A program made the translations under genes and the position numbers. The notes under the pieces were generated by a model. That model ran no database searches and was not told the DNA's origin. It was given only the letters and a program-made list of their open reading frames with translations. A stretch of 64,000 nt of DNA. Source: Helianthus annuus. Lineage: Eukaryota > Streptophyta > Magnoliopsida > Asterales > Asteraceae. Location of the stretch: positions 166,934,263-166,998,262 of the forward strand of contig NC_035437.2 of assembly GCF_002127325.2 (NCBI RefSeq). The letters run 5' to 3'. Positions within the stretch are counted from its first letter, which is position 1. The number at the start of each line of letters is the position of its first letter. This document shows positions 4,250-59,500 of the stretch, piece after piece.

Positions 4250-6065
4250 GACGGTGCGTCCCGTGGTGAGGAAACCAGCACGCGTGGATTGCCGTTATAC
4301 ACCACCGCCGATACCAACCATCACGTGTGCATGTGGCAACGCGTGGAAAAATGATTGTGACCGTTTGAGATTTGAACGTTGGAACTTTGTATACGTTAGT
4401 TTTTGACCGTTTGCGATTTAAAAAAAAAAAAACTTAAACACCATATATATATCACCTGTTTTAATCTTTTCAACCAACAAAAAAACACCTACATCCTACA
4501 TATTTCACCCACAAAAAACATAAATTTATATCACTTTCTGGGGTAAAAATAGAATTTCCTACGGATTCGTTTCCGATAGACACTGATAGCGATAACGAAA
4601 CGTCTTCCGACAATAAGACGCTTGAATTTTTCGAGAAGGTGTATAACGAACTTGAAGGTTCGAGCCGCCCAAAAAAGAATATGGTGGATCGTGATCGTAT
4701 ACATGCCAACCAAGTGTTAATGAAGGATTATTTTGTGGAGAATCCGGTCCATAATGCCGAAACGTTTAGAGATCGGTTTCGTTTACCAAAAGATTTATTT
4801 TTAGAGATTGTTGGAGACATCGAAACAAGCGAAGAATGGTTTCAAGAACGTTACGACAGGAGGGGCAAACGAAGTTTTACACCGATACAAAAATGCACAT
4901 CCGCCATTCGCTAACTAGCGACAGGTAACCCTCCCGATCAATATGATGAATACTTAGCTATGTCGGACAGAACTTCACGTGAATGTTTGCAATTCTTTTG
5001 TAACGCGATCATTAAATTGTATGCCAAAAAGTTCCTACGTAAACCAATGACACTCGACAACGCACGTATTTACGCCGCGCATGAGGCTAGATGGCATTTT
5101 CCAGGGATGCTCGGTAGCATCGATTGTACACATATTCAATGGAGAAATTGTCCAAGAGAGTTGCGAGGGGCGTGTGTTTGGGGTGACGTCAAAAGACCAA
5201 CCATCATACTTGAAGTCGTGACATCGAATGATTTATGGTTTTGTCATTCATATTTTGATGTTCCTGGTTCAAACAATGACATCAATGTTTTGTACACATC
5301 GTCGTTGTTTTAAAGCGTAACAGATGCTACCGCACCCTTCTGTCCATTTTTTGTTAACGGAAGATATTACAGACGAGGCTTTCTTCTTATGGATGGTATC
5401 TACCCATCATGGTATGTTTTTGTGAAAGCCCTCTCATTTCCTGTCGAGGTTAAAGAAAAGACGTTCAAGAGGTTGCAAGAAGAATCGGCAAGAAAAGATG
5501 TTGAGAGGGCTTTTGGTGTTTTAAACGGTAGATGGGACATACTAAACCGACCGGTTCGTGCGATGAATAAGAAAACAATACATAGCTGGAAAATGCAATC
5601 TCCATATTGGGTGTCGGATCCTTCTACACAAGTTCCCGTTCCCGAAAATGTCCAACAAGACTTGCCCAATGAAGAAATTCACTTTCGGTTGAGATATGAT
5701 TTAATTGAACTTGTAGGTTCTTTAGGTTTGAAATTCCCGGATCCGGACGAGTACTAGGTTTTCTTTGTATATATTTTTATTTTTATATGATTATTTTTAA
5801 GTTGTAAGCTAAAATATTTCTAGAAATATTATTTTTTATTTTAATGAAATTTGTAATTTATAATTTTATTGTTTTATTGTTAATGTATAATTTAAAAAAA
5901 AAAACAAAAACCATAACTAGTGATGAGCATTTCCACTAAAATCCATCACTAGTGATGGAATGAAGCTTGATGACGTGGCGGAACTTGATTGGATATTGTA
6001 AGTGATGGAATTCCTTCACTAGTGGAGCGCCCCTACCCCTAAGGCCACTACGGGTGGTCCGTTAT
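4250..6065 (+). mobile_element. PIF/Harbinger-type DNA transposon, decayed
   Basis: A degenerate element carrying the transposase remnant at 4531-5757. Candidate inverted ends are the CCCGTGGTG-containing segment near 4257-4270 and the CCACTACGGG segment near 6048-6057. They share the CCCGTRGTG core with the end of the small element at 16318. No convincing 3-bp TSD was found, so the boundaries are tentative. Confidence 0.5.
4531..5757 (+). pseudogene. Harbinger-like (DDE_Tnp_4) transposase, two in-frame stops
   Basis: One reading frame runs through the whole span. The N-terminal part (FRDRFRLPKDLFLEIVGDIE) is typical of plant PIF/Harbinger transposases. The catalytic triad can be located: D in GSIDCTH, D in NNDINVL and E in KDVERAFGVL. 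The frame is broken by TAA at 4912-4914 and TAA at about 5311-5313; both lie inside conserved blocks. After the RAMNKKTIHS segment the conserved helix before the C-terminus seems deleted, and the frame passes directly into an acidic tail ending FPDPDEY. No ATG is visible at the start of the conserved N-terminus, so initiation is probably lost too. It cannot make an active transposase. Family assignment is firm; the exact element boundaries are not. Confidence 0.85.
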
Positions 6066-35400: not shown

Positions 35401-36717
35401 TCTGATTATGTTGAGATTGTACCGGTGGTTGTTGGTATGGGTAACCGACACCGGGTTGTAAGTTGTAACACCCCGAAAATTCCGTCCAATTATGTGACGA
35501 CACGTGTCCAATTCTCCAACTAATCCCGACTACGTAGAGGGAGAAACCTCCAACTAATCCAGATTATGTGGAAGGAGGAAGGACCTACACTGAACGTTAA
35601 CTGAAACGTGTTCTGAATCTCCGACTAATCCCGATTCTAGGAAGGAAAGAAAGATTATTATTATTATTGTGCGTTATCTGAAACGCGTCCCGAATCTCCG
35701 ACTAATCCCAACTACGAGAAAGGAGAGGGACTAACAGTGCCAAATGGCTAAAGTCCAAGGAATAAACATGTAAATTCTCAAAATTTTGATTATGGCAGGA
35801 CTTAACCCTTACGGTCCGTAAGCTTGTTCAAACCTTCTACGCGCTTAATGTGACAACTCGTACTTTACCGTCTCGTACATTACGTGTAACCATCGAACTA
35901 GTGTGATTACGTGATCATATTAATTGAACAAATGTTGTGTTATGTGCTTGATGTTTACTATTTGTACATGTATGAATCGGACCGCACAACACACCCACAC
36001 TCGCACAAGCCCATTCGGGCCTTATACTTTGCACACGGGTTATTAGGGCAGCCCATGTGGGTTCGGCCCACTCCCCTTTAACCGTGTAAATCCCATAGTT
36101 GGGGATAGGTTTTGGTTAGTTGTCACAAACACAAAAACACACACAAACCCTAGAAGTTTTCCTCTCTCTCTCGGCTTGCTTGGAACCCGACGGCACACAC
36201 ACACACTTTGAAGCTTGTGAAACGAATCGATCCTCTACCTTCATCCGGTTAGTGATGATGTTATGTTTTTGGATTATTTGTGATATCATGTGATTGCTAT
36301 CATTCGTTAGGCGATGTAACTAGGGTGTATGCTAGTAATATTGGTTGAATGTTGATGATAATTGGATTGTTAATCGGTTCTCATGAATGATTAAGATATA
36401 CGGTTACTTGACATGAAATCGGTTATATGTATGTTTGTGTGATGAGGAATAATTCGGATGGGTTGATAGTCTGAATGTATGCAAACCGGGTAGGATGCAT
36501 GATAGCTGATTTATGATTCGGTATGTTTTTATAATAATCTGATTTCCTGTTCTTGATGTTAATATGAACATGCTTGATACTCATGATTTGAAGTTGAATG
36601 AAATCGGAATTAACTGTGATTGATCGAAATTGTGAAACTGCCTAAGTTGTTTGCTAGAATCACGGATAAGTCAATGCAGGAAATATGGAAACCAGTTACA
36701 TACGCGATTTCGACACC

Positions 36718-36945
36718 TGGTTGCGAGTCGGGACCATAGTTGCGAGTCAGAATCCCACTCGTAACCAAGCCAGCACAAGTCGAGACTACGGTTGCGAGTC
36801 CCGTTGCGACTCGTAACCAGCACATGATCAGTCGTAACCAGACCATGATGAACCGAGACCTCCATTGCGACTCGCAAACAGCTGTTGCGACTCGTAATCT
36901 CCGGTTGCGACTCGAGATCCCCGTTGCGAGTCGAGATCACCATCG
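36718..36945 (+). repeat. Array of TTGCGASTCG words in the LTR
   Basis: About nine copies of a 10-bp word, TTGCGACTCG or TTGCGAGTCG, or its complement, irregularly spaced in about 230 bp; also at 44119-44346. Comparable word arrays occur in the two other long LTRs of this window. Confidence 0.8.
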
Positions 36946-37414
36946 TTTACACGCACACAGTTGGGCCTTCACTGTCACGGGCCCAATCTATTGAGCCCAA
37001 CGATTTGAACTGTGGACTGTTTATTATTGGACTTGTTTGTGCTTGCTATTTGGGCCGATTGAGAATCTGGACTGTTTTGTTATTGAGCTGCTTATGTCAT
37101 TGGGCCGGGTATGAATGGACTTAGAACAATTGGATCCTCACATGCTATGTCTTATCTGCTTACGTGCGTACATGCTTGCCATGACTATACGTGATTACTA
37201 TATACGTGCTATATACGAACCTGACTCGTATAATAACCATGATAGGACGTGAGTGATCATTTACTTGCTACTTGTACTTTCTGTGTATCTGCCGAGCAAA
37301 CCAAGGTGAGTTCACACAGCCAAGGCATGGGATTCCCGGGTTGGGAATTGGGTTGGATATGTTGAATTTGGAATGATTACTCGTACTTACGCATATACCA
37401 GACTATAGACCATC

Positions 37415-37778
37415 GTCCTCAGGTTAGTCAGGACACGTTACGTAAAGCCTACGTAACCCAGTATATTTGCCATATGTCTCCCGGGTCGGGAGGACACGTT
37501 ACGTAAAGCCTACGTAACCCAATACCATCCACTGGCTTCCAGGTCGGAAGGCCACGCTGCGTAAAGCCTACGTAGCCCCCACGCGTACCACTGTCCTCGG
37601 GGAAGGGCACGTCACGTAAAGCCTACGTGACCCTGTACGTTTTCCTGTTCTCGGTAAAGAAGAACACATGGTCGGAAGTTAGTCTAGTAAGTACCGTTAA
37701 TGAGAAGCCCTCATTAGCCAAGATGAACATGGGAAGCCCCCACCTTTATTACACACTAGTATGGGAAGCCCCCACTAG
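37415..37778 (+). other. Array of covarying stem-loops with AAGCC loops (5' LTR)
   Basis: Four units of about 60 bp each contain an 8-bp stem around loop AAGCC: GTTACGTA/TACGTAAC (37437-37457 and 37498-37518), GCTGCGTA/TACGTAGC (37556-37576) and GTCACGTA/TACGTGAC (37611-37631). Three more AAGCC hairpins follow: TAATGAG/CTCATTA (37698-37716), TGGG/CCCA (37730-37742) and CTAG-TGGG/CCCACTAG (37756-37778). Between units lie second hairpins such as GTCTCCC/GGGAGGAC and GGCTTCC/GGAAGGCC. Paired positions change together. The array lies between 366 and 730 nt upstream of the LTR end, so it should be in the 5' leader of the element's RNA. Confidence 0.8.
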
Positions 37779-38146
37779 CTATACTTATGCATTACTTTAT
37801 GAACTTACTTTCTGTGAACTCGCTCAACTAGTTTGTTGATTATTTGCTGCATGCCTTGCAGGACCTTAGGTATACTTGGGAGCTTGCACAGGGAAGGAGC
37901 AGGTCGTTGTGGGCAGATGGATCGTTAATGATGTCGAACTCATAACTCGTTTTGAATTTACTTTACTATGCTTCCGCTACTTAAAACAGTATTTGGTTTT
38001 TGAAACATCAATCATGTCATGGTGACTTACGTTAATTACTTTTATTATTATTAAATGCTATGTTTGATATGATTGATGGCTTGATCCTGGTCAGTCACGC
38101 TCCCAAGCGGTGGTATTCCGCGGGTGGATTTTGGGGGTGTGACAGA

Positions 38147-38160
38147 TTGGTATCAGAGCC
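38147..38160 (+). other. Primer-binding site of the Gypsy element
   Basis: TTGGTATCAGAGCC begins 3 bp after the LTR end and is complementary to the 3' end of initiator methionine tRNA, the usual primer for plant Gypsy elements. Confidence 0.9.
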
Positions 38161-38459
38161 ATTGGTTATAGAGAACTTGGTTTTAATATGGGAAAACGTT
38201 TTTATTAAAACCGGACTATAACCAGTACAGTGCTCTCAACGATCCACAACGACGCTTCGCTCCACGTGCAAGACTCGACATCCTAGGTAATAAGGTTTAT
38301 GTTTATTGCCTGTTTGCTAGAACTGTTTAGAACTTTGCTCGCATTACGCTTAGATACACATGCTTGATTACATGAGAACACCTATATGCCTACACTTTTC
38401 TGTCATCGCCCTACTCGCGAACCATTCTTACGTATGCTACTTGTTACTATGAAGATCAA

Positions 38460-41400
38460 TGGCCGCACGAATTAACATGACTCAAGCCCAGCTAGAGGCT
38501 CTCATTGCTGCGGCAGTTGCAGCCGCCCAAGCAGGTAGTATACCCTGCAGTATAGACACTGGGATCTTTAGATCCTACATTAATCCTCGTACTTAACTTT
38601 GCCCTATCCGTACACAATAGGTCAACCCGCTCAGCAGCAGCCTGGGTGCACCTTCAAGAACTTCATGGAATGTCGTCCTAGCTCGTTTAGTGGCACAGAG
38701 GGAGCAGTTGGACTCCTCCACTGGTTTGAAAAGCTCGAGTCGGTTTTCGAAATGTGCGAATGCCCTGAGGCTCGCAGGGTGAAGTTCGCCACTGGCACAC
38801 TTGAAGGGATTGCGCTCACTTGGTGGAACGCACAAGTGCAGATCTTAGGGTTGGCAGCTGCTAACGCCACCCCATGGAACGACTTTAAGGAACTCATCAA
38901 GCGTGAGTATTGCACGCGGGAAGACATACACAAGCTGGAAGATGAGCTTTATAACTTGAAAATGGTTGGATCGGAAATCGAAGCGTATACCAAACGGTCC
39001 AATGAGCTGGCCGTTCTGTGTCCAACTATGGTGGACCCTCCATACAAGCGCATTGAGTTGTATCTCAAGGGATTGGCGCCAGAAATTCAGAGCCACGTGA
39101 CGTCGGCTAACCTCGAAAACATCCAGGAAATCCAACGCCTAGCTCACCGTATCACCGATCAGGCAGTGGATCAGAATAAACTGCCCAAGCGTGTTAATGC
39201 TACTGCTAACGTCACCACCTCAGTTACTCCTGCTACAACTGGTGACAGTAAAAGAAAGTGGGATGGGGATTCCAGCAAAGGTTCAGCGATTGTTCAGCCA
39301 CAAGCTCAGCAGCAGAAGATCGATCACTACCAGAGTCCTAGTCAGCAATCCTCTGGTAGTCACAGACAGAGGAGATATCAGGGTAGTCAACCCAGGTGCC
39401 ACAACTGCAACAGGCATCACCACGGCCCATGTAACAAGGGTCGTTGTCAAAGGTGTCTTAAGATGGGTCACGAGGCCAAAGACTGCAGGAGCCCTCGTCC
39501 TGCGAATCAGAATCAGCAGCCTCAGCAACCAGCTCCACAGAACCAGCAGCAGCAGCAGCAGCCACAGCGTGGAAACCGGGGATGTTTCCAGTGTGGGGCT
39601 GAAGGTCACTTCAAACGCGATTGCCCTCAGTTGAACCAGAATCGCAACAACAATAACCAGGGCAACGGGAACAACAACGGTGGAAACAACAACAATAACG
39701 GCAATGAAGCTCGTGGTCGTGCATTCGTACTAGGTCGAGGCGACGCAGTGAACGATCCCAACGTTGTTATGGGTAAGTTTCTCCTCGACAATATTTACGT
39801 TACTGTTTTATTTGATTCGGGTGCGGATACAAGCTATATGTCTGTGAAAATGTGTCGACTGCTAAAACGTGCACCAACACTTTTACCCACCAAACATGTA
39901 GTCGAGTTAGCTAACGGTAAAAGTCTAGAAGCCACGCACGTAGTTCAAGGTTGTAATCTTATCTTAGCTGGTCAAGCCTTCTCTATTGATCTCATTCCCA
40001 TAGTTTTGGGTAGCTTCGACGTCGTGATTGGGATGGATTGGTTGTCCCAACACCAGGCAGAAATCTTATGCAGCGAAAAGGTTATTCGCATTCCTCGTTC
40101 GGGTCAGGAACCTCTGGAAGTTCAAGGCGACAAGAGTGGTGCTGTGGTTGGCATCATCTCTTTCTTGAAGGCTCAGAAGTGCTTACGTAAAGGTCACACA
40201 GCCATTCTGGCTCTCGTTACAGACGCATTAGCAAAGGAAAAGAAATTGGAAGATATTCCAATTGTACGTGATTACCCTCAGGTGTTTCCTGAAGACTTAC
40301 CTGGCTTACCGCCTCATCGTCAGGTCGAATTTCAGATCGAGCTCGCTCCAGGAGCAGCACCCATAGCTCGCGCACCATATCGTCTAGCTCCATCGGAACT
40401 GGAGGAATTGTCAAAGCAACTGCAAGAACTCTTGGAAAAGGGTTTCATACGACCAAGCTCTTCGCCTTGGGGAGCTCCAGTACTCTTTGTGAAAAAGAAA
40501 GACGGTACGTTCAGGATGTGTATAGACTACCGTGAACTCAACAAGGTGACGGTGAAGAACCGTTATCCTCTTCCACGCATAGACGACTTATTCGACCAGT
40601 TGCAAGGGTCGTGCTACTATTCGAAGATAGATTTGAGGTCGGGGTACCATCAGCTGAGAGTCCGGGATGAGGACGTCTCCAAGACAGCTTTCAGAACTCG
40701 TTACGGTCACTACGAGTTTCTCGTCATGCCATTCGGGTTAACGAACGCGCCAGCTGTATTTATGGATCTTATGAACAGGGTGTGCAAACCCTACCTTGAC
40801 AAGTTCGTCATTGTTTTCATCGACGACATCCTGATCTACTCCAAGAGTCAGGAGGAGCACGAGCAGCATCTTCGCCTTATTTTGGAACTCCTTCGGAAGG
40901 AACAGTTGTACGCCAAGCTTTCTAAATGCGACTTCTGGCTTCGTGAAGTCCACTTCTTAGGCCACGTAGTGAACAAGGATGGGATACATGTCGATCCATC
41001 CAAGGTAGATTCGGTCAGAAACTGGCCTGCACCGCGTACACCGACAGAGATACGCCAATTCTTGGGTCTGGCAGGTTACTACAGACGGTTTATCAAGGAT
41101 TTCTCGAAGATTGCTCAGCCGCTTACGCTACTGACACAGAAGGGTGTTACCTATCGCTGGGGAGAGCCCCAGGAGACTGCTTTTCAGCACTTAAAAGATA
41201 GGCTTTGCAGCGCACCTATTCTCTCATTGCCAGAGGGCACAGAAGACTTCGTAGTATATTGTGATGCATCCATTCGGGGATTGGGATGTGTGTTAATGCA
41301 GCGCGACAAGGTTATTGCTTACGCCTCTCGTCAACTCAAGGTTCACGAACGGAACTACACGACGCACGATTTAGAGCTGGGAGCTGTTGTTTTTGCGCTT

Positions 41401-43173
41401 AAGATATGGCGACACTACCTGTACGGTACCAGGTGCACGATTTACACCGATCACAGGAGTCTCGAGCATATCCTTAAGCAGAAGGATTTGAACATGCGTC
41501 AACGGCGATGGGTTGAATTACTGAACGATTACGAATGCGCTATCAAGTACCATCCAGGCAAAGCCAATGTTGTGGCTGACGCCCTTAGTCGAAAGGACAC
41601 CTTACCGAAGCGCGTGCGAGCGCTACAGCTTACGATCCAGTCTAGCCTTCCTGCACAGATACGAAATGCTCAGACAGAAGCACTGAAGCCCGAAAACGTC
41701 ATGGCTGAAGCCTTACGCGGCTCACGACAGCAAATGGAACAGAAGGCAGACGGTGCCTACTATGTAACGGGCCGTATTTGGGTCCCTCTTTATGGCGGTT
41801 TACGCGAACTTGTTATGGATGAAGCTCACAAGTCTCGCTACTCGGTACATCCAGGGTCGGATAAAATGTACCACGACATCAGCACTACTTATTGGTGGCC
41901 TAGTATGAAGGCCCACATTGCTACGTACGTTGGAAAGTGCTTGACCTGTGCGAGAGTCAAGGTCGAATATCAGAAACCAGCTGGTCTACTTCAGCAGCCT
42001 AAGATACCTCAGTGGAAATGGGAAGAAATTTCCATGGATTTCGTTACAGGCCTACCTAGATCCCAGCGTGGGAACGATACGATATGGGTCATAGTTGATC
42101 GACTCACCAAGTCTGCACACTTCCTGCCGATTAAGGAAACGGACAAGTTCTCCACTCTCGCAGACGTTTATCTTAAAGAAGTTGTCTCGAGGCACGGGGT
42201 GCCCACGTCTATCATTTCGGATCGCGATGCACGATTCACGTCAGAACTTTGGTAAGCAATGCATAAATCTTTCGGCTCACGACTAGACATGAGCACAGCA
42301 TACCACCCTCAGACGGATGGACAGTCTGAGCGTACGATTCAAACACTTGAAGACATGCTTCGGGCATGCGTTATCGACTTCGGCAACGGCTGGGAAAAGC
42401 ACCTCCCTTTGGTGGAGTTTTCTTACAATAACAGTTACCATACCAGCATTCAAGCCGCTCCATTCGAGGCATTGTACGGGCGTAAATGCCGGTCACCTCT
42501 CTGTTGGGCAGAGGTGGGAGATAGTCAGATCACGGGTCCAGAGATTGTTGTGGACGCCACAGAAAAGATTGCACAAATACGACAACGCATGGCGGCAGCA
42601 CGCGACCGTCAGAAAGCCTACGCGGATAAGCGTAGAAAGCCATTGGAATTTGAGGTCGGGGACCGGGTTTTATTGAAAGTCTCACCCTGGAAGGGTGTGG
42701 TTCGTTTTGGCAAACGGGGCAAACTGAATCCGCGGTACGTCGGACCATTCGAAATTATAGAAAAGATTGGCAAGGTAGCCTACAAGTTGAACTTACCAGC
42801 TGAACTCGGGGCAGTTCACAATGTCTTTCACGTATCGAACCTAAAGAAGTGCCTATCAGATGAAAATCTTATCATTCCTTTTAAGGAACTCACTATCGAC
42901 GAGCGGTTACAGTTCGTTGAGGAACCAGTCGAAATCACGGACCGGGATGTGAAGGTCCTCAAACACAAGAGAATCCCTCTTGTTCGAGTTCGTTGGAACT
43001 CCAAACGTGGCCCAGAGTACACCTGGGAACGCGAAGACAGGATGACAGAAAAGTACCCCCAGTTATTCGGGAACAAGGCAACCACTACTGAGGCTGAAGC
43101 TACTACTTCGGAATTTCGGGACGAAATTCCAGATCAACGGGGGGAGGATGTGACACCCCAGGAAAATCAGTGA
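38460..43173 (+). pseudogene. Gypsy Gag-Pol polyprotein, interrupted by one stop codon
   Basis: The main frame runs 38599-42255 (1218 codons) and, after TAA at 42253-42255, continues in the same frame to 43173. Domains in order: Gag capsid-like (from [18 protein letters not shown]); three Cys/His knuckles, two of them canonical ([14 protein letters not shown] and [14 protein letters not shown]); protease ([12 protein letters not shown]); reverse transcriptase ([21 protein letters not shown]); RNase H ([13 protein letters not shown]); integrase with an HHCC-like zinc site, D in MDFVTGLP, D in SDRDARF and E in GQSERTIQ; and a C-terminal chromodomain-like segment ([20 protein letters not shown]). 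The stop lies between the second and third integrase acidic residues. An ATG at 38460 opens a 25-codon frame that joins the main frame if 38535-38620 (GTAGTA ... AATAG) is an intron. Without splicing the first Met is at 38599. Confidence 0.93.
43112..43156 (+). other. Extra polypurine-tract/LTR-start-like module
   Basis: TTTCGGGACGAAATT, then ACGGGGGGAGGA, then TGTGACACC. This is repeated in weaker form at 43217-43257 (TTTCGGGACGAAATT ... TTGGGGATAA, TGTGACAAC), where the real 3' LTR begins. The upstream copy has the stronger PPT. Confidence 0.75.
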
Positions 43174-43249: not shown

Positions 43250-45545
43250 TGTGACAACTCGTACTTTACCGTCTCGTACATTACGTGTAACCATCGAACT
43301 AGTGTGATTACGTGATCATATTAATTGAACAAATGTTGTGTTATGTGCTTGATGTTTACTATTTGTACATGTATGAATCGGACCGCACAACACACCCACA
43401 CTCGCACAAGCCCATTCGGGCCTTATACTTTGCACACGGGTTATTAGGGCAGCCCATGTGGGTTCGGCCCACTCCCCTTTAACCGTGTAAATCCCATAGT
43501 TGGGGATAGGTTTTGGTTAGTTGTCACAAACACAAAAACACACACAAACCCTAGAAGTTTTCCTCTCTCTCTCGGCTTGCTTGGAACCCGACGGCACACA
43601 CACACACTTTGAAGCTTGTGAAACGAATCGATCCTCTACCTTCATCCGGTTAGTGATGATGTTATGTTTTTGGATTATTTGTGATATCATGTGATTGCTA
43701 TCATTCGTTAGGCGATGTAACTAGGGTGTATGCTAGTAATATTGGTTGAATGTTGATGATAATTGGATTGTTAATCGGTTCTCATGAATGATTAAGATAT
43801 ACGGTTACTTGACATGAAATCGGTTATATGTATGTTTGTGTGATGAGGAATAATTCGGATGGGTTGATAGTCTGAATGTATGCAAACCGGGTAGGATGCA
43901 TGATAGCTGATTTATGATTCGGTATGTTTTTATAATAATCTGATTTCCTGTTCTTGATGTTAATATGAACATGCTTGATACTCATGATTTGAAGTTGAAT
44001 GAAATCGGAATTAACTGTGATTGATCGAAATTGTGAAACTGCCTAAGTTGTTTGCTAGAATCACGGATAAGTCAATGCAGGAAATATGGAAACCAGTTAC
44101 ATACGCGATTTCGACACCTGGTTGCGAGTCGGGACCATAGTTGCGAGTCAGAATCCCACTCGTAACCAAGCCAGCACAAGTCGAGACTACGGTTGCGAGT
44201 CCCGTTGCGACTCGTAACCAGCACATGATCAGTCGTAACCAGACCATGATGAACCGAGACCTCCATTGCGACTCGCAAACAGCTGTTGCGACTCGTAATC
44301 TCCGGTTGCGACTCGAGATCCCCGTTGCGAGTCGAGATCACCATCGTTTACACGCACACAGTTGGGCCTTCACTGTCACGGGCCCAATCTATTGAGCCCA
44401 ACGATTTGAACTGTGGACTGTTTATTATTGGACTTGTTTGTGCTTGCTATTTGGGCCGATTGAGAATCTGGACTGTTTTGTTATTGAGCTGCTTATGTCA
44501 TTGGGCCGGGTATGAATGGACTTAGAACAATTGGATCCTCACATGCTATGTCTTATCTGCTTACGTGCGTACATGCTTGCCATGACTATACGTGATTACT
44601 ATATACGTGCTATATACGAACCTGACTCGTATAATAACCATGATAGGACGTGAGTGATCATTTACTTGCTACTTGTACTTTCTGTGTATCTGCCGAGCAA
44701 ACCAAGGTGAGTTCACACAGCCAAGGCATGGGATTCCCGGGTTGGGAATTGGGTTGGATATGTTGAATTTGGAATGATTACTCGTACTTACGCATATACC
44801 AGACTATAGACCATCGTCCTCAGGTTAGTCAGGACACGTTACGTAAAGCCTACGTAACCCAGTATATTTGCCATATGTCTCCCGGGTCGGGAGGACACGT
44901 TACGTAAAGCCTACGTAACCCAATACCATCCACTGGCTTCCAGGTCGGAAGGCCACGCTGCGTAAAGCCTACGTAGCCCCCACGCGTACCACTGTCCTCG
45001 GGGAAGGGCACGTCACGTAAAGCCTACGTGACCCTGTACGTTTTCCTGTTCTCGGTAAAGAAGAACACATGGTCGGAAGTTAGTCTAGTAAGTACCGTTA
45101 ATGAGAAGCCCTCATTAGCCAAGATGAACATGGGAAGCCCCCACCTTTATTACACACTAGTATGGGAAGCCCCCACTAGCTATACTTATGCATTACTTTA
45201 TGAACTTACTTTCTGTGAACTCGCTCAACTAGTTTGTTGATTATTTGCTGCATGCCTTGCAGGACCTTAGGTATACTTGGGAGCTTGCACAGGGAAGGAG
45301 CAGGTCGTTGTGGGCAGATGGATCGTTAATGATGTCGAACTCATAACTCGTTTTGAATTTACTTTACTATGCTTCCGCTACTTAAAACAGTATTTGGTTT
45401 TTGAAACATCAATCATGTCATGGTGACTTACGTTAATTACTTTTATTATTATTAAATGCTATGTTTGATATGATTGATGGCTTGATCCTGGTCAGTCACG
45501 CTCCCAAGCGGTGGTATTTCGCGGGTGGATTTTGGGGGTGTGACA
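43250..45545 (+). repeat. 3' LTR of the Gypsy element
   Basis: 2296 bp, equal in length to the 5' LTR. The hairpin array recurs at 44816-45179. Confidence 0.97.
44816..45179 (+). other. Array of covarying stem-loops with AAGCC loops (3' LTR)
   Basis: The same array as in the 5' LTR, offset by 7401 bp. Confidence 0.8.
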
Positions 45546-56561: not shown

Positions 56562-59500
56562 TCAAGATTCTTGACCCGCTGCACTTGCTTGAGTTTCGGC
56601 TTGTTTTACCGCCATTGCAACATGCTTCTGACCAGCAAGATGAGTAAAAAACGCCTTTTCAGAGTTACAAACAACATTGCACAAGTTACAAATTTGTAAA
56701 GCATCCGAAGCCGTCCCACTTTGCAAAACCCTCTGCTTCTTCGTCTCCACGTCATCATTACCTCCACCTTTCTTCCCCTTCCTCTTAGAACCGATACGTT
56801 CGCCATTTTCTTGCAACGGTCCAATCACCTTTGTTGTTTCTGCAGGGTTCGGTCCAATTAATTTTTCAGACTTCTCTAAGTTCTTTCGGTGTTTTTTTCC
56901 TGTTAGGTGAATATTCAACACTTCCTCAGTGTTGCAACTAATCCCGCAAAGTTCACACACCCAGTTAGCACCATGTGAATTGACGGTTTTGCCCTCATTA
57001 GACTCCAGATTTACCACAGGCAGATTTGACGAGATAGCTCCAGTTAAATTGTCAGTTTTGTCCTCGGTGGACTCTGGATTTGCCATAGGGTTGGTAGGTG
57101 GTGCGTCTTGTGAAGAAATAGGGGTCAAGGGCAGATTAGACATTTTAGCTTCGGTTAAATCGCCTGTTTTGTCCTCAATGGACTCTTGATTTGCCATAGG
57201 CTCGGTTGGTTGTGTGTCCTGTAAAGCAATAGGAGCCGGGGGCACATTTGACGGTATAGCTCCATGTAAATTGACCGTATTGCCCTCATTGGACTCTGGA
57301 TTTACCACAGGCGGTGTGTCCTGTGAAGCAATAGCAGCCAAGGGCAAGTTTGGTATTTGGCCCAATTCTTTTAATTTCTTAAGGTGTTTCTTCCCAGCTA
57401 TATGCGTGTTTAACAGTTCCCCACTCGTGCAAACGATTTTGCAGATTTCACATGGAAAGCCGACGAGTTTCTTCTGTGAACCACCGCCACTGGAATCTGA
57501 TGTGGCATCAAAGACTGCATTCGTGCTTGCCAGCTGGATGACTGACTGCATACCACATACAAAAACAATTACCTAAACTTATAGAAATTCAGATTTATAA
57601 ATCATAGAGGCCAGTTAATCGTACAGTGGGTACGCGAGCATCTCAACCGCACATCTGATCTAATCTAGGCCTTCAACTGAACGCGGCGGCACAATAACTT
57701 TGCATAATTATGCACGTTATTGCATAATTACCCACATTATAAAACATAATTACACAAGTTATTTGAATAATAACGCATTTACGCATGGGTTGGGTTAAAC
57801 CCTAATTACGCACGTTATTTGCATAATTACGCATGGGTTGGGTTAACCCTAATTACGCACGTTATTTGCATAATTACGCATGGGTTGGGTTAAACCCTAA
57901 TTACGCACGTTATTTGCATAATTACGCATGGGTTGGGTTAACCCTAATTACGCACGTTATTTGCATAATTACGCATGGGTTGGGTTAACCCTAATTACGC
58001 ACGTTATTTGCATAATTACGTATGGATTGGGTTAACCCTAATTAAGCACGTTATTTGCATGATTACGCACGTTATACTCGTGGTCGTGTACCGTCGCACG
58101 TTAAGAGCCTTTTGTATTTAAACTTTTCACTAAATCATAATGAAATATTTAGCAGAAAAAAATATATAATATAGAGACAGTAATCCCAAAAAACATTAAA
58201 AAGTGACACAAACATGGAATCATAAAAAAATAAATTATCAAAACTTATAGAAACTCAGATTTTTAAATCAAAAGCATGTAACATTATAAAAGTTACCTTC
58301 GCAGCATGCTTTTTGCTAGCGACATGCTGCTGAAATCCTTCTTGATTGTTGCATATCACATTGCAAACATCACAAGATAGCAATGTTTCAGCCGTTGCTC
58401 CGTTTTTCAATAGCCTTTGCTTCTTATTCTCCAACTCTTCAACTACAGTTTCACTTGCAACAGGTGGCGGTACCATATTTGGTGGATTGGCAGATAAATC
58501 GGCTAACCTTTTCATCCTTTTTAAGTGTTTTTTACCTTGTTTATGTTTCTCGAGCACGTCCTTCGTATCACAAGAAATATTACATACCTCACATTGAAAG
58601 GGTAGGATATTTTCAAGTTGTCTTGTTACGAAGACAGCGTTTGTAGTCTCATTCGTAGTCGCAACGACCTGAAGATGCCAAAGTGGTACGTTTAAACTTT
58701 GTCAAAACAAAATGAATATTGTAAACTAAAAACCAAATTAGGTGCGTTAAAGAGAAACTTCATGTTCACACATTATACAAGATAAGGTTAAGAGTGAATT
58801 TCAAGGATTGTCCTTTATCTTTATACCCATTTTCAGGCGTTGTCCTTTATCTTTAAAATTGACGAGTTTTGTCCTTTATGTTCATATCATACACGTTTTG
58901 TCCTTTAGGCCTAACCCAGTTAGTTTTTTCAGTTAAATTATGTCATATGCTTTGCACATGAGGACATTTTTGTTAATTCAAAGTTAAGTTCAACGGTAGA
59001 TTTACAGCTCAAAGCTTCTGCAACCTTTGAATTGACAAAAATTCCCTCATGATCAAATTTAACTGAAAAAATTAACTGGGTTAGGCTTAAAGGACAAAAC
59101 GTGTATGATATGAAAATATACAGGACAAAACTCATCAATTTTAAACATAAAGGACAGCGCCAGAAAATAGGTATAAAGATAAAGGACAGTCTTTGAAATT
59201 TACTCTTAATAGGTTAATATGTAAACAAGGAACGTATAGCAATTACAATTAACTACCTCATAACAACTAGTTTGGTTAATATGATTTTATCTTATTGTTT
59301 TATAACCAAATCTTTACTTAAATACGAAAATGTTAAAATTGTGCTAATGACTTTTCACTTTCCATATACACTGGCCCACCGAGCTACCTTTATTAGACAC
59401 GTGCAATTTCACACATCTTGTAGATGATCAACTACTCACACGTGCAATGACGGGCATCACTAATGTTCAAAATTCGGAACAATCATACACCCTTCGAAAT

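Follow-up and report, generated by a model that had tools for sequence, protein, structure and literature searches.

What maintains a tandem array of small hairpins in the LTR of a sunflower retrotransposon, and would the array act as DNA or as RNA? The question is raised by a stretch of 64,000 nucleotides of Helianthus annuus DNA (the window), in which a first-pass annotation had described seven hairpins with a common AAGCC loop and had read the matched changes in their stems as the mark of selection on RNA structure. To our knowledge, little has been established about the marking of genomic RNA in plant Ty3/Gypsy elements. As judged from the comparison of related leaders described below, sunflower Tekay-like LTRs carry a domain that is maintained as a base-paired structure, a predicted long-range stem around tandem hairpin cassettes.

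The array and the element that carries it

The array is located in a Ty3/Gypsy element with two LTRs, a primer binding site, a TSD and ordered Pfam domains (Gag-PR-RT-RH-IN: Ty3 capsid, zinc knuckle, protease, RT, RNase H and integrase parts); coordinates are collected in Table 1. We take the element to belong to the Tekay clade, and its primer site TGGTATCAGAGC is presumably of the iMet tRNA type. The near-identity of the LTRs indicates that the element inserted recently, and the single difference between them (38118) lies inside the LTR-end hairpin beside the primer site. There are two gag-pol frames, 38599-42255 and 42259-43173, the first ended by a stop codon (42253-42255) that is in frame with the second. 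The proteins closest to the first frame are from Helianthus (91 % identity over 99 %, parts up to 99 %). The polyprotein harbours a CCHC knuckle (PF00098) and has a C-terminal tail that is chromodomain-like by eye, for which the Pfam search gave no chromodomain match. The predicted gag intron has a GC content of 0.41 vs 0.60 and 0.55 in its flanks, and the gag N-terminus after predicted splicing resembles the Helianthus protein model P0001. This model joins across the place equivalent to the gag intron; another model, P0014, appears to read through it.

Table 1 Features of the element and of its hairpin array (positions in the window)
Feature	Positions	Strand	Remarks
5' LTR (TGTGACA...TGTGACA)	35849..38144	+	TSD CTTAA
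Two TATATA boxes, putative promoter	37199..37216	+	Sole TATAWA sites in LTR, at 37199 and 37210
GTGAGTTCAC, 5' arm of long-range closing stem	37306..37315	+	Also splice-donor match AAG/GTGAGT
B1 spacer hairpin	37415..37434	+	GTCCT/AGGAC
A1 hairpin	37437..37457	+	GTTACGTA-AAGCC-TACGTAAC
B2 spacer hairpin	37476..37495	+	Bulged G, loop GGGTC
A2 hairpin	37498..37518	+	Same sequence as A1
B3 spacer hairpin	37534..37553	+	Bulged G, loop AGGTC
A3 hairpin	37556..37576	+	GCTGCGTA-AAGCC-TACGTAGC, G.U at pair 4
B4 spacer hairpin	37592..37609	+	TGTCCT/AGGGCA, one U.G
A4 hairpin	37611..37631	+	GTCACGTA-AAGCC-TACGTGAC
B5 spacer hairpin	37646..37666	+	TGTTCT/AGAACA, no A hairpin directly after
A5 hairpin	37696..37718	+	GTTAATGAG-AAGCC-CTCATTAGC, one U.G, inner pairs replaced
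Unit 6, conserved terminal hairpin	37722..37750	+	TGGG-AAGCC-CCCA core, weak outer pairing
Unit 7, second copy of TGGG-AAGCC-CCCA hairpin	37756..37778	+	
GTGAACTCGC, 3' arm of closing stem	37814..37823	+	
B-like hairpin ATGCCT...AGGTAT	37851..37873	+	Loop with TTGCAG (candidate splice acceptor 37861/37862)
LTR-end hairpin adjoining primer site	38094..38143	+	120-nt window at 38069, z -5.95
Primer binding site TGGTATCAGAGC	38148..38159	+	
gag first exon (38459-38534) and predicted 86-nt gag intron (38535-38620)	38459..38620	+	
3' LTR	43250..45545	+	1 mismatch in 2296 vs 5' LTR; same array at +7401

The two TATA-like boxes lie 5' of the array, from which we infer that the array is placed in the RNA leader. 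Tekay members are missing from the highly expressed sunflower elements in the excerpt of PMC7730604, and sunflower Tekay copies have been described to form eccDNA under stress (excerpt of PMC11728184). The strongest local fold of the LTR and early leader is found at 38069-38188 (z -5.95 sense, -4.58 antisense), and counterparts of the LTR-end hairpin are present in three relatives introduced below (L014, L015 and L022). A second tandem repeat occurs in the LTR at 36865-36938 (TTGCGACTCG...), 5' of the TATA-like boxes (120-nt window at 36869, sense z -2.64), and an unrelated 47-bp tandem array with TTGGGTTAACCCTAATTACGCAC is situated at 57779-58069 of the window.

All seven AAGCC hairpins reported by the first-pass annotation were recovered in both LTRs of the element, their loops starting at 37445, 37506, 37564, 37619, 37705, 37734 and 37766 in the 5' LTR. 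The 8-bp stems of the four main units, including the wobble at pair 4 of unit 3, agreed with its description, as did the spacer hairpins (GTC/GAC, GTC/GAC, GGC/GCC, GTC/GGC and GTT/AAC) and the bulged G in units 2 and 3. The AAGCC hairpins (A) have stems of 8, 8, 8 (unit 3, one G.U), 8 and 9 (unit 5, one U.G) bp, and units 6 and 7 consist of 4-bp cores only (TGGG-AAGCC-CCCA) with weaker outer pairing. The view of one array of seven units had to be amended: the hairpins exist, but units 6 and 7 represent a distinct conserved hairpin, GGGAAGCCCCC. Similarly, the loop is invariant within the window subfamily, but AAACC or AATCC are found elsewhere too.

The window contains 105 AAGCC words (67 on the + and 38 on the - strand), of which just 14, seven per LTR, lie within stems of at least 4 bp. 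In 500 dinucleotide-shuffled LTRs one loop word was shared by at most two pentaloop stems of at least 7 bp, compared to the five observed for AAGCC. Two candidate roles were rejected: the stems of 8-9 bp are too short for a source of siRNA or miRNA, and the loop spacings of 61, 58 and 55 bp, not all multiples of three, rule out an encoded peptide. The chance that all pairs are kept among the units of the window array alone lay between about 0.001 and 0.06 according to the transition bias assumed, and relatives were therefore needed.

Relatives, closing stem and compensatory change

Relatives of the LTR were obtained from 20 arbitrary 10-kb stretches of the sunflower's own genome, which yielded L022, L014 and L015 (71-75 % identity) as well as L020; a block shared by relatives was absent from three further sampled genome stretches. 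The genome contains 37,400 copies of the 17-mer CCAAGGTGAGTTCACAC of this block, against none of its reversed control, and 58,669 of a 23-mer at the block when at most 3 mismatches are allowed (control 3). The leader set (n = 24) consisted of the window, L022, L014, L020 and L060-L079, the last being twenty 621-nt leaders taken from the shared block, one per element, at the first suitable places on contig C1 (20 of 100 listed). A further sample, again with one place per element, comprised 20 of 40 listed places. No close relative was found among viral contigs with gag-pol protein, A hairpin or alignment queries, and neither a plasmid search with the leader nor a phage search with pol gave a match. 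Three distant Ty3-type contigs turned up among public genome contigs; they lack AAGCC hairpins with a stem of at least 4 bp, and one of them (L001) has an iMet-type primer site. L001 is a plant-like Ty3 element in a contig labelled Labilibacter sediminis, a bacterial assembly that is probably contaminated. A spurious frame across the array matches two 67-aa predictions, from Helianthus annuus HA300 and H. anomalus, which suggests that the array may also be present in these genomes.

Comparison of the 24 leaders indicates that the array forms the variable interior of a larger predicted domain, closed by a conserved long-range stem. The 5' arm GTGAGTTCAC occurs in all 24 leaders and is followed 367-587 nt downstream by a partner, GTGAACTCGC in 20, GTGAACTCAC in three and GTGAATTCAC in one, all of them pairable. 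The partner was sought with a pattern admitting pairing variants only, and no leader lacked a match. Since 20 of the 24 leaders had been picked by the exact 5' block, the 5' arm could not vary in these and only the 3' arm tests the closing stem independently. With the domain folded alone, the closing stem is part of the MFE structure of 22 leaders, with 8 to 10 of its 10 pairs, L062 and L068 being the exceptions.

The space within this stem is filled in different ways. Cassettes in which two linker bases join a B (spacer) hairpin to an A hairpin are found in 11 of the 24 leaders; L076 has a similar cassette with a different loop, and L014 carries eight B hairpins and no A. Another repeated hairpin, TCGC...GCC...GGC...GCGA, occupies the slot in L064, L065, L067, L069, L071 and L079, and B-like hairpins with the loop CYNTNGGT do so in L063 and L066. 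The A loop is AAGCC, AAACC or AATCC, two kinds being present in some single arrays. The terminal hairpin GGGAAGCCCCC is exact in 15 leaders, and 18 have a B-like hairpin with TTGCAG in its loop. The predicted B hairpin is the more widespread unit, compared to the A hairpin. In the six leaders with the other repeated hairpin (TCGCACACATGCC...GGCCGCGA) the pair changes appear compensatory by eye. A structured-looking module, AGTCCCTC...TTAGT...TAGCGCTA...TAGGTTT...CACCGTG, also recognized by eye and without an Rfam match, is common to L063, L066, L070, L078 and L020 (about 4820-4910).

Covariation was analyzed in an alignment of 41 cassettes from 11 elements, made from sequence without regard to structure, of which 36 distinct rows were scored on two hairpins. 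These cassettes remained after 29 of 70 pattern hits had been dropped, mostly one-base-shifted duplicates, hits without the AANCCT word or hits in L063, L070 and L078. RNAalifold, proposed with the first-pass annotation and applied here to related LTRs of the same genome, recovered the same two hairpins unaided. Compensatory changes exceed the alignment-shuffle control. Paired cells amounted to 94.5 % vs 89.1 % in shuffles (none of 500 as high), cells changed on both sides to 19 vs 3.2 (0/500), pairs with such two-sided change to 6 vs 2.6 (1/500) and covariation to 0.219 vs 0.132 (0/500); the number of further pair types, 15 vs 12.6, was reached by 31 of 500 shuffles. As the shuffles leave relatedness in place, these fractions are not probabilities, and the kinship of the copies overstates their independence. 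Controls with slid arms gave at most 49.9 % paired cells and a covariation of at most 0.079; the +2 slid control is a further caveat, for two-sided change persists there in 5 pairs and 16 cells, against 6 and 19 observed. At columns 13/26 bulged units are misaligned, and the ten U.G cells that result are not countable as evidence. Among the cassettes, A.C is found at least twice as a departure in an A stem (L060_8 and L068_3). A clean two-sided example is provided by unit 1 of L072, in which GTTGCGTA/TACGCAAC takes the place of the GTTACGTA/TACGTAAC found in the window.

A first MAFFT alignment of the B hairpins was discarded due to misplaced 3' arms. A permutation on the spacer hairpins was performed with sites chosen regardless of pairing, and 75.9 % of positions were found paired vs 62.9 % (0 of 2000 permutations as high). 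Three of the 59 sites in this permutation had no AG at 5-11 nt, the rest comprised 36 distinct sequences, and the arms were assigned crudely.

Candidate roles of the predicted leader domain

With middling confidence we regard the domain as a multivalent Gag-binding signal for packaging and dimerisation of unspliced leader RNA, with the closing stem hiding a splice donor. The domain would be transcribed within the RNA 5' leader, and its repeated loops would jointly provide a multivalent site for Gag, the bearer of the CCHC knuckle. Through this binding, full-length unspliced RNA would be selected, dimerised and packaged. The closing stem would make the domain one folding unit in which the GTGAGT donor is hidden, and RNA folded with this stem would stay unspliced and be packaged. 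The location 5' of the primer site, the identical repeated loops, the CCHC knuckle and the predicted gag intron are points in favour of this reading; given such a gag intron, the copied RNA would have to be unspliced and the Gag-making RNA spliced. As the loops differ between families, no single loop word would be a universal ligand.

It is also possible, though unlikely, that the domain is in the first place a switch of splicing or translation. Consensus donor and acceptor sequences are present for a candidate leader intron, from AAG/GTGAGT (37305/37306) to TTGCAG/G (37861/37862). In the folded RNA the donor would pair with 37814-37823 and the intron would be retained; in the unfolded RNA the block would be removed and the shorter leader translated. 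The donor match in GTGAGTTCAC is the only strong one in 2.85 kb, and both GTGAGT and the NAG acceptor block persist across families in which the interior is replaced (GTGAGT having been part of the selection of 20 of the 24 leaders); leaders with T in place of the C of GCAG retain an NAG acceptor (GTAGG in L067 and L071). Among plant retrotransposons, RNA splicing has been documented for BARE1 (excerpt of PMC3735527) and for the sunflower elements Tyran and Varan (excerpt of PMC7730604), and donor structure controls splicing in HIV-1 (excerpt of PMC3847799). However, the interior of the candidate intron (taken as 37307-37862, shifted by one base at either end) is not U-rich relative to its flanks: with a GC content of 0.48 and a T content of 0.26 it is GC-richer and T-poorer than the leader that follows (0.41 and 0.33) or precedes it (0.43 and 0.33), opposite to the U-rich plant introns described in the excerpt of PMC3735527. 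Furthermore, the position of TTGCAG in the loop of a B-like hairpin would alone be enough to explain its conservation, and 18 upstream ATGs are left in the leader outside the candidate intron. The packaging reading and the splicing reading can both hold.

Selection on the hairpins would not be needed at all if tandem duplication and template switching made and repaired the inverted repeats, leaving paired changes without function. Template switching in reverse transcription or replication can create and correct inverted repeats, and the arrays are indeed tandem and variable in copy number. Fold energy, moreover, has no consistent strand preference. The RNA fold of 37410-37780 has a z of -2.90 (0 of 100 shuffles as good) vs -1.81 (5 of 100) for the reverse strand, and in 120-nt windows the array reaches z -2.5 on the + and -2.4 on the - strand, the strands being alike and other LTR folds stronger. 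Over the 24 leaders a sense-strand folding advantage was absent (mean z -2.06 vs antisense -2.44; sense lower in 9 of 24; Wilcoxon P 0.19). In the L014 family the spacers vary as little as the stems (0.9 % and 0.8 %), the loops varying 3.7 times as much as the stems (2.9 %).

Non-canonical pairs speak against such a mutational origin. Palindromes in DNA, or their repair by template switching, would lead to equal numbers of U.G and C.A, whereas genome-wide pair 2 of the A stem is T-A in 26,562 copies, C-G in 7,724, sense U.G in 157 and sense C.A in 41. Copies paired on the same strand at a distance of 5-11 kb were regarded as the LTRs of a single element. Such pairs numbered 27 among the first 100 of the 157 U.G copies listed and 2 among all 41 C.A copies (Fisher P 0.0002), so that U.G seems to survive replication and C.A seems mostly private decay. 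At pair 4 of the A stem G.U occurs 4,410 times vs 49 for A.C, counts that include related copies, the G.U being largely unit 3 of one subfamily; five pairs of A.C copies at this position sit 7.3-7.6 kb apart, in an LTR-like manner, which indicates that some A.C is transmitted. Among 21 copies of the L014 family, with eight hairpins each, the stem departures were 15 G.U, 1 A.C and no other (6 vs 1 by distinct pair type). In the genome counts and in the L014 family G.U is tolerated more than A.C, in a strand-specific manner, with a contrary 3 G.U vs 4 A.C (and 22 other) among the departures in the B-hairpin permutation. In addition, the closing stem is kept in all 24 leaders with its arms about 370-590 nt apart, and the families fill the slot with different hairpins. 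We consider a purely mutational by-product improbable. The cassette alignment, the B-hairpin permutation and the genome counts, all drawn from relatives, together support the earlier proposal that the paired changes reflect selection on RNA structure.

Tandem enhancer boxes are common in plant LTRs, such as the BII boxes of Tnt1, and many A arms contain ACGT (TTACGTA, TACGTAA). It is nevertheless very unlikely that bZIP or NAC proteins bind the arms in DNA as palindromic sites with an ACGT core, for a protein-DNA site needs no matching change in the opposite arm, the core is missing from most B and terminal hairpins, U.G exceeds C.A, and the array lies 3' of the sole TATA-like boxes of the LTR; a literature search for NAC sites found nothing pertinent.

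Relation to known leader RNAs and significance

The domain appears to fall in the known class of cis-acting leader RNAs of LTR elements, and within this class it is a putative packaging signal. Two elements compared below are Copia elements, BARE1 of barley (Ty1/Copia) and Ty1 of yeast. Retroviral leader packaging signals (SL-D and DIS of MoMuLV, psi of HIV-1; excerpt of PMC7599994) likewise consist of several hairpins before gag and serve to select unspliced RNA. The knuckles of retroviral NC read exposed guanosines, and SL-D of MoMuLV kisses by two G-C pairs (same excerpt). In contrast to these signals, the sunflower hairpins are tandemly amplified, family-specific in type and number, located in the LTR 5' of the primer site and enclosed by a predicted closing stem spanning ~500 nt. 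The packaging region of FIV shares a conserved long-range helix (excerpt of PMC2987497), but belongs to another virus group and differs in position, both arms of the sunflower closing stem being within the LTR. BARE1, also a plant LTR element, has spliced and unspliced RNA pools, but its intron is located near the gag end (excerpt of PMC3735527); the words hairpin and kissing are absent from the text of that source. For the Ty1 TIPIRT leader, another retrotransposon leader, a kissing-loop dimerisation model has been presented, whereas no tandem hairpin array is described in the excerpt of PMC5454406. Active Tekay elements of sunflower, of the same host and presumed clade as the window element, are the subject of PMC11728184 (seen in excerpt), the main text of which has no match to hairpin, intron, splic or untranslated.

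The first-pass annotation knew of no described motif of this kind. In the literature searched, which included few subscription papers and no preprints, we found none either, nor any account of a closing stem or of arrayed hairpins in the leaders of plant Ty3/Gypsy elements, and exact words of the LTR gave no match. An Rfam search with the window LTR and 15 loci gave two hits, neither of which reached the gathering score or fell within the domain, so that no Rfam family corresponds to the domain.

The block that marks the domain exists in tens of thousands of copies, and the domain itself is defined to the base pair. The variation between families makes the hypotheses of packaging, dimerisation and splicing directly testable in vitro, and the variation among copies within one genome can provide the covariation needed for finding RNA structures of retrotransposons. 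It may be speculated, as a rather unlikely extension of the packaging reading, that the leaders embody a modular packaging code, in which the closing stem is fixed while families swap, multiply and diversify hairpin cassettes and each Gag reads its own set of loops. If true, such a code would make packaging specific even with thousands of relatives in the same genome, and the buried donor would link this specificity to splicing.
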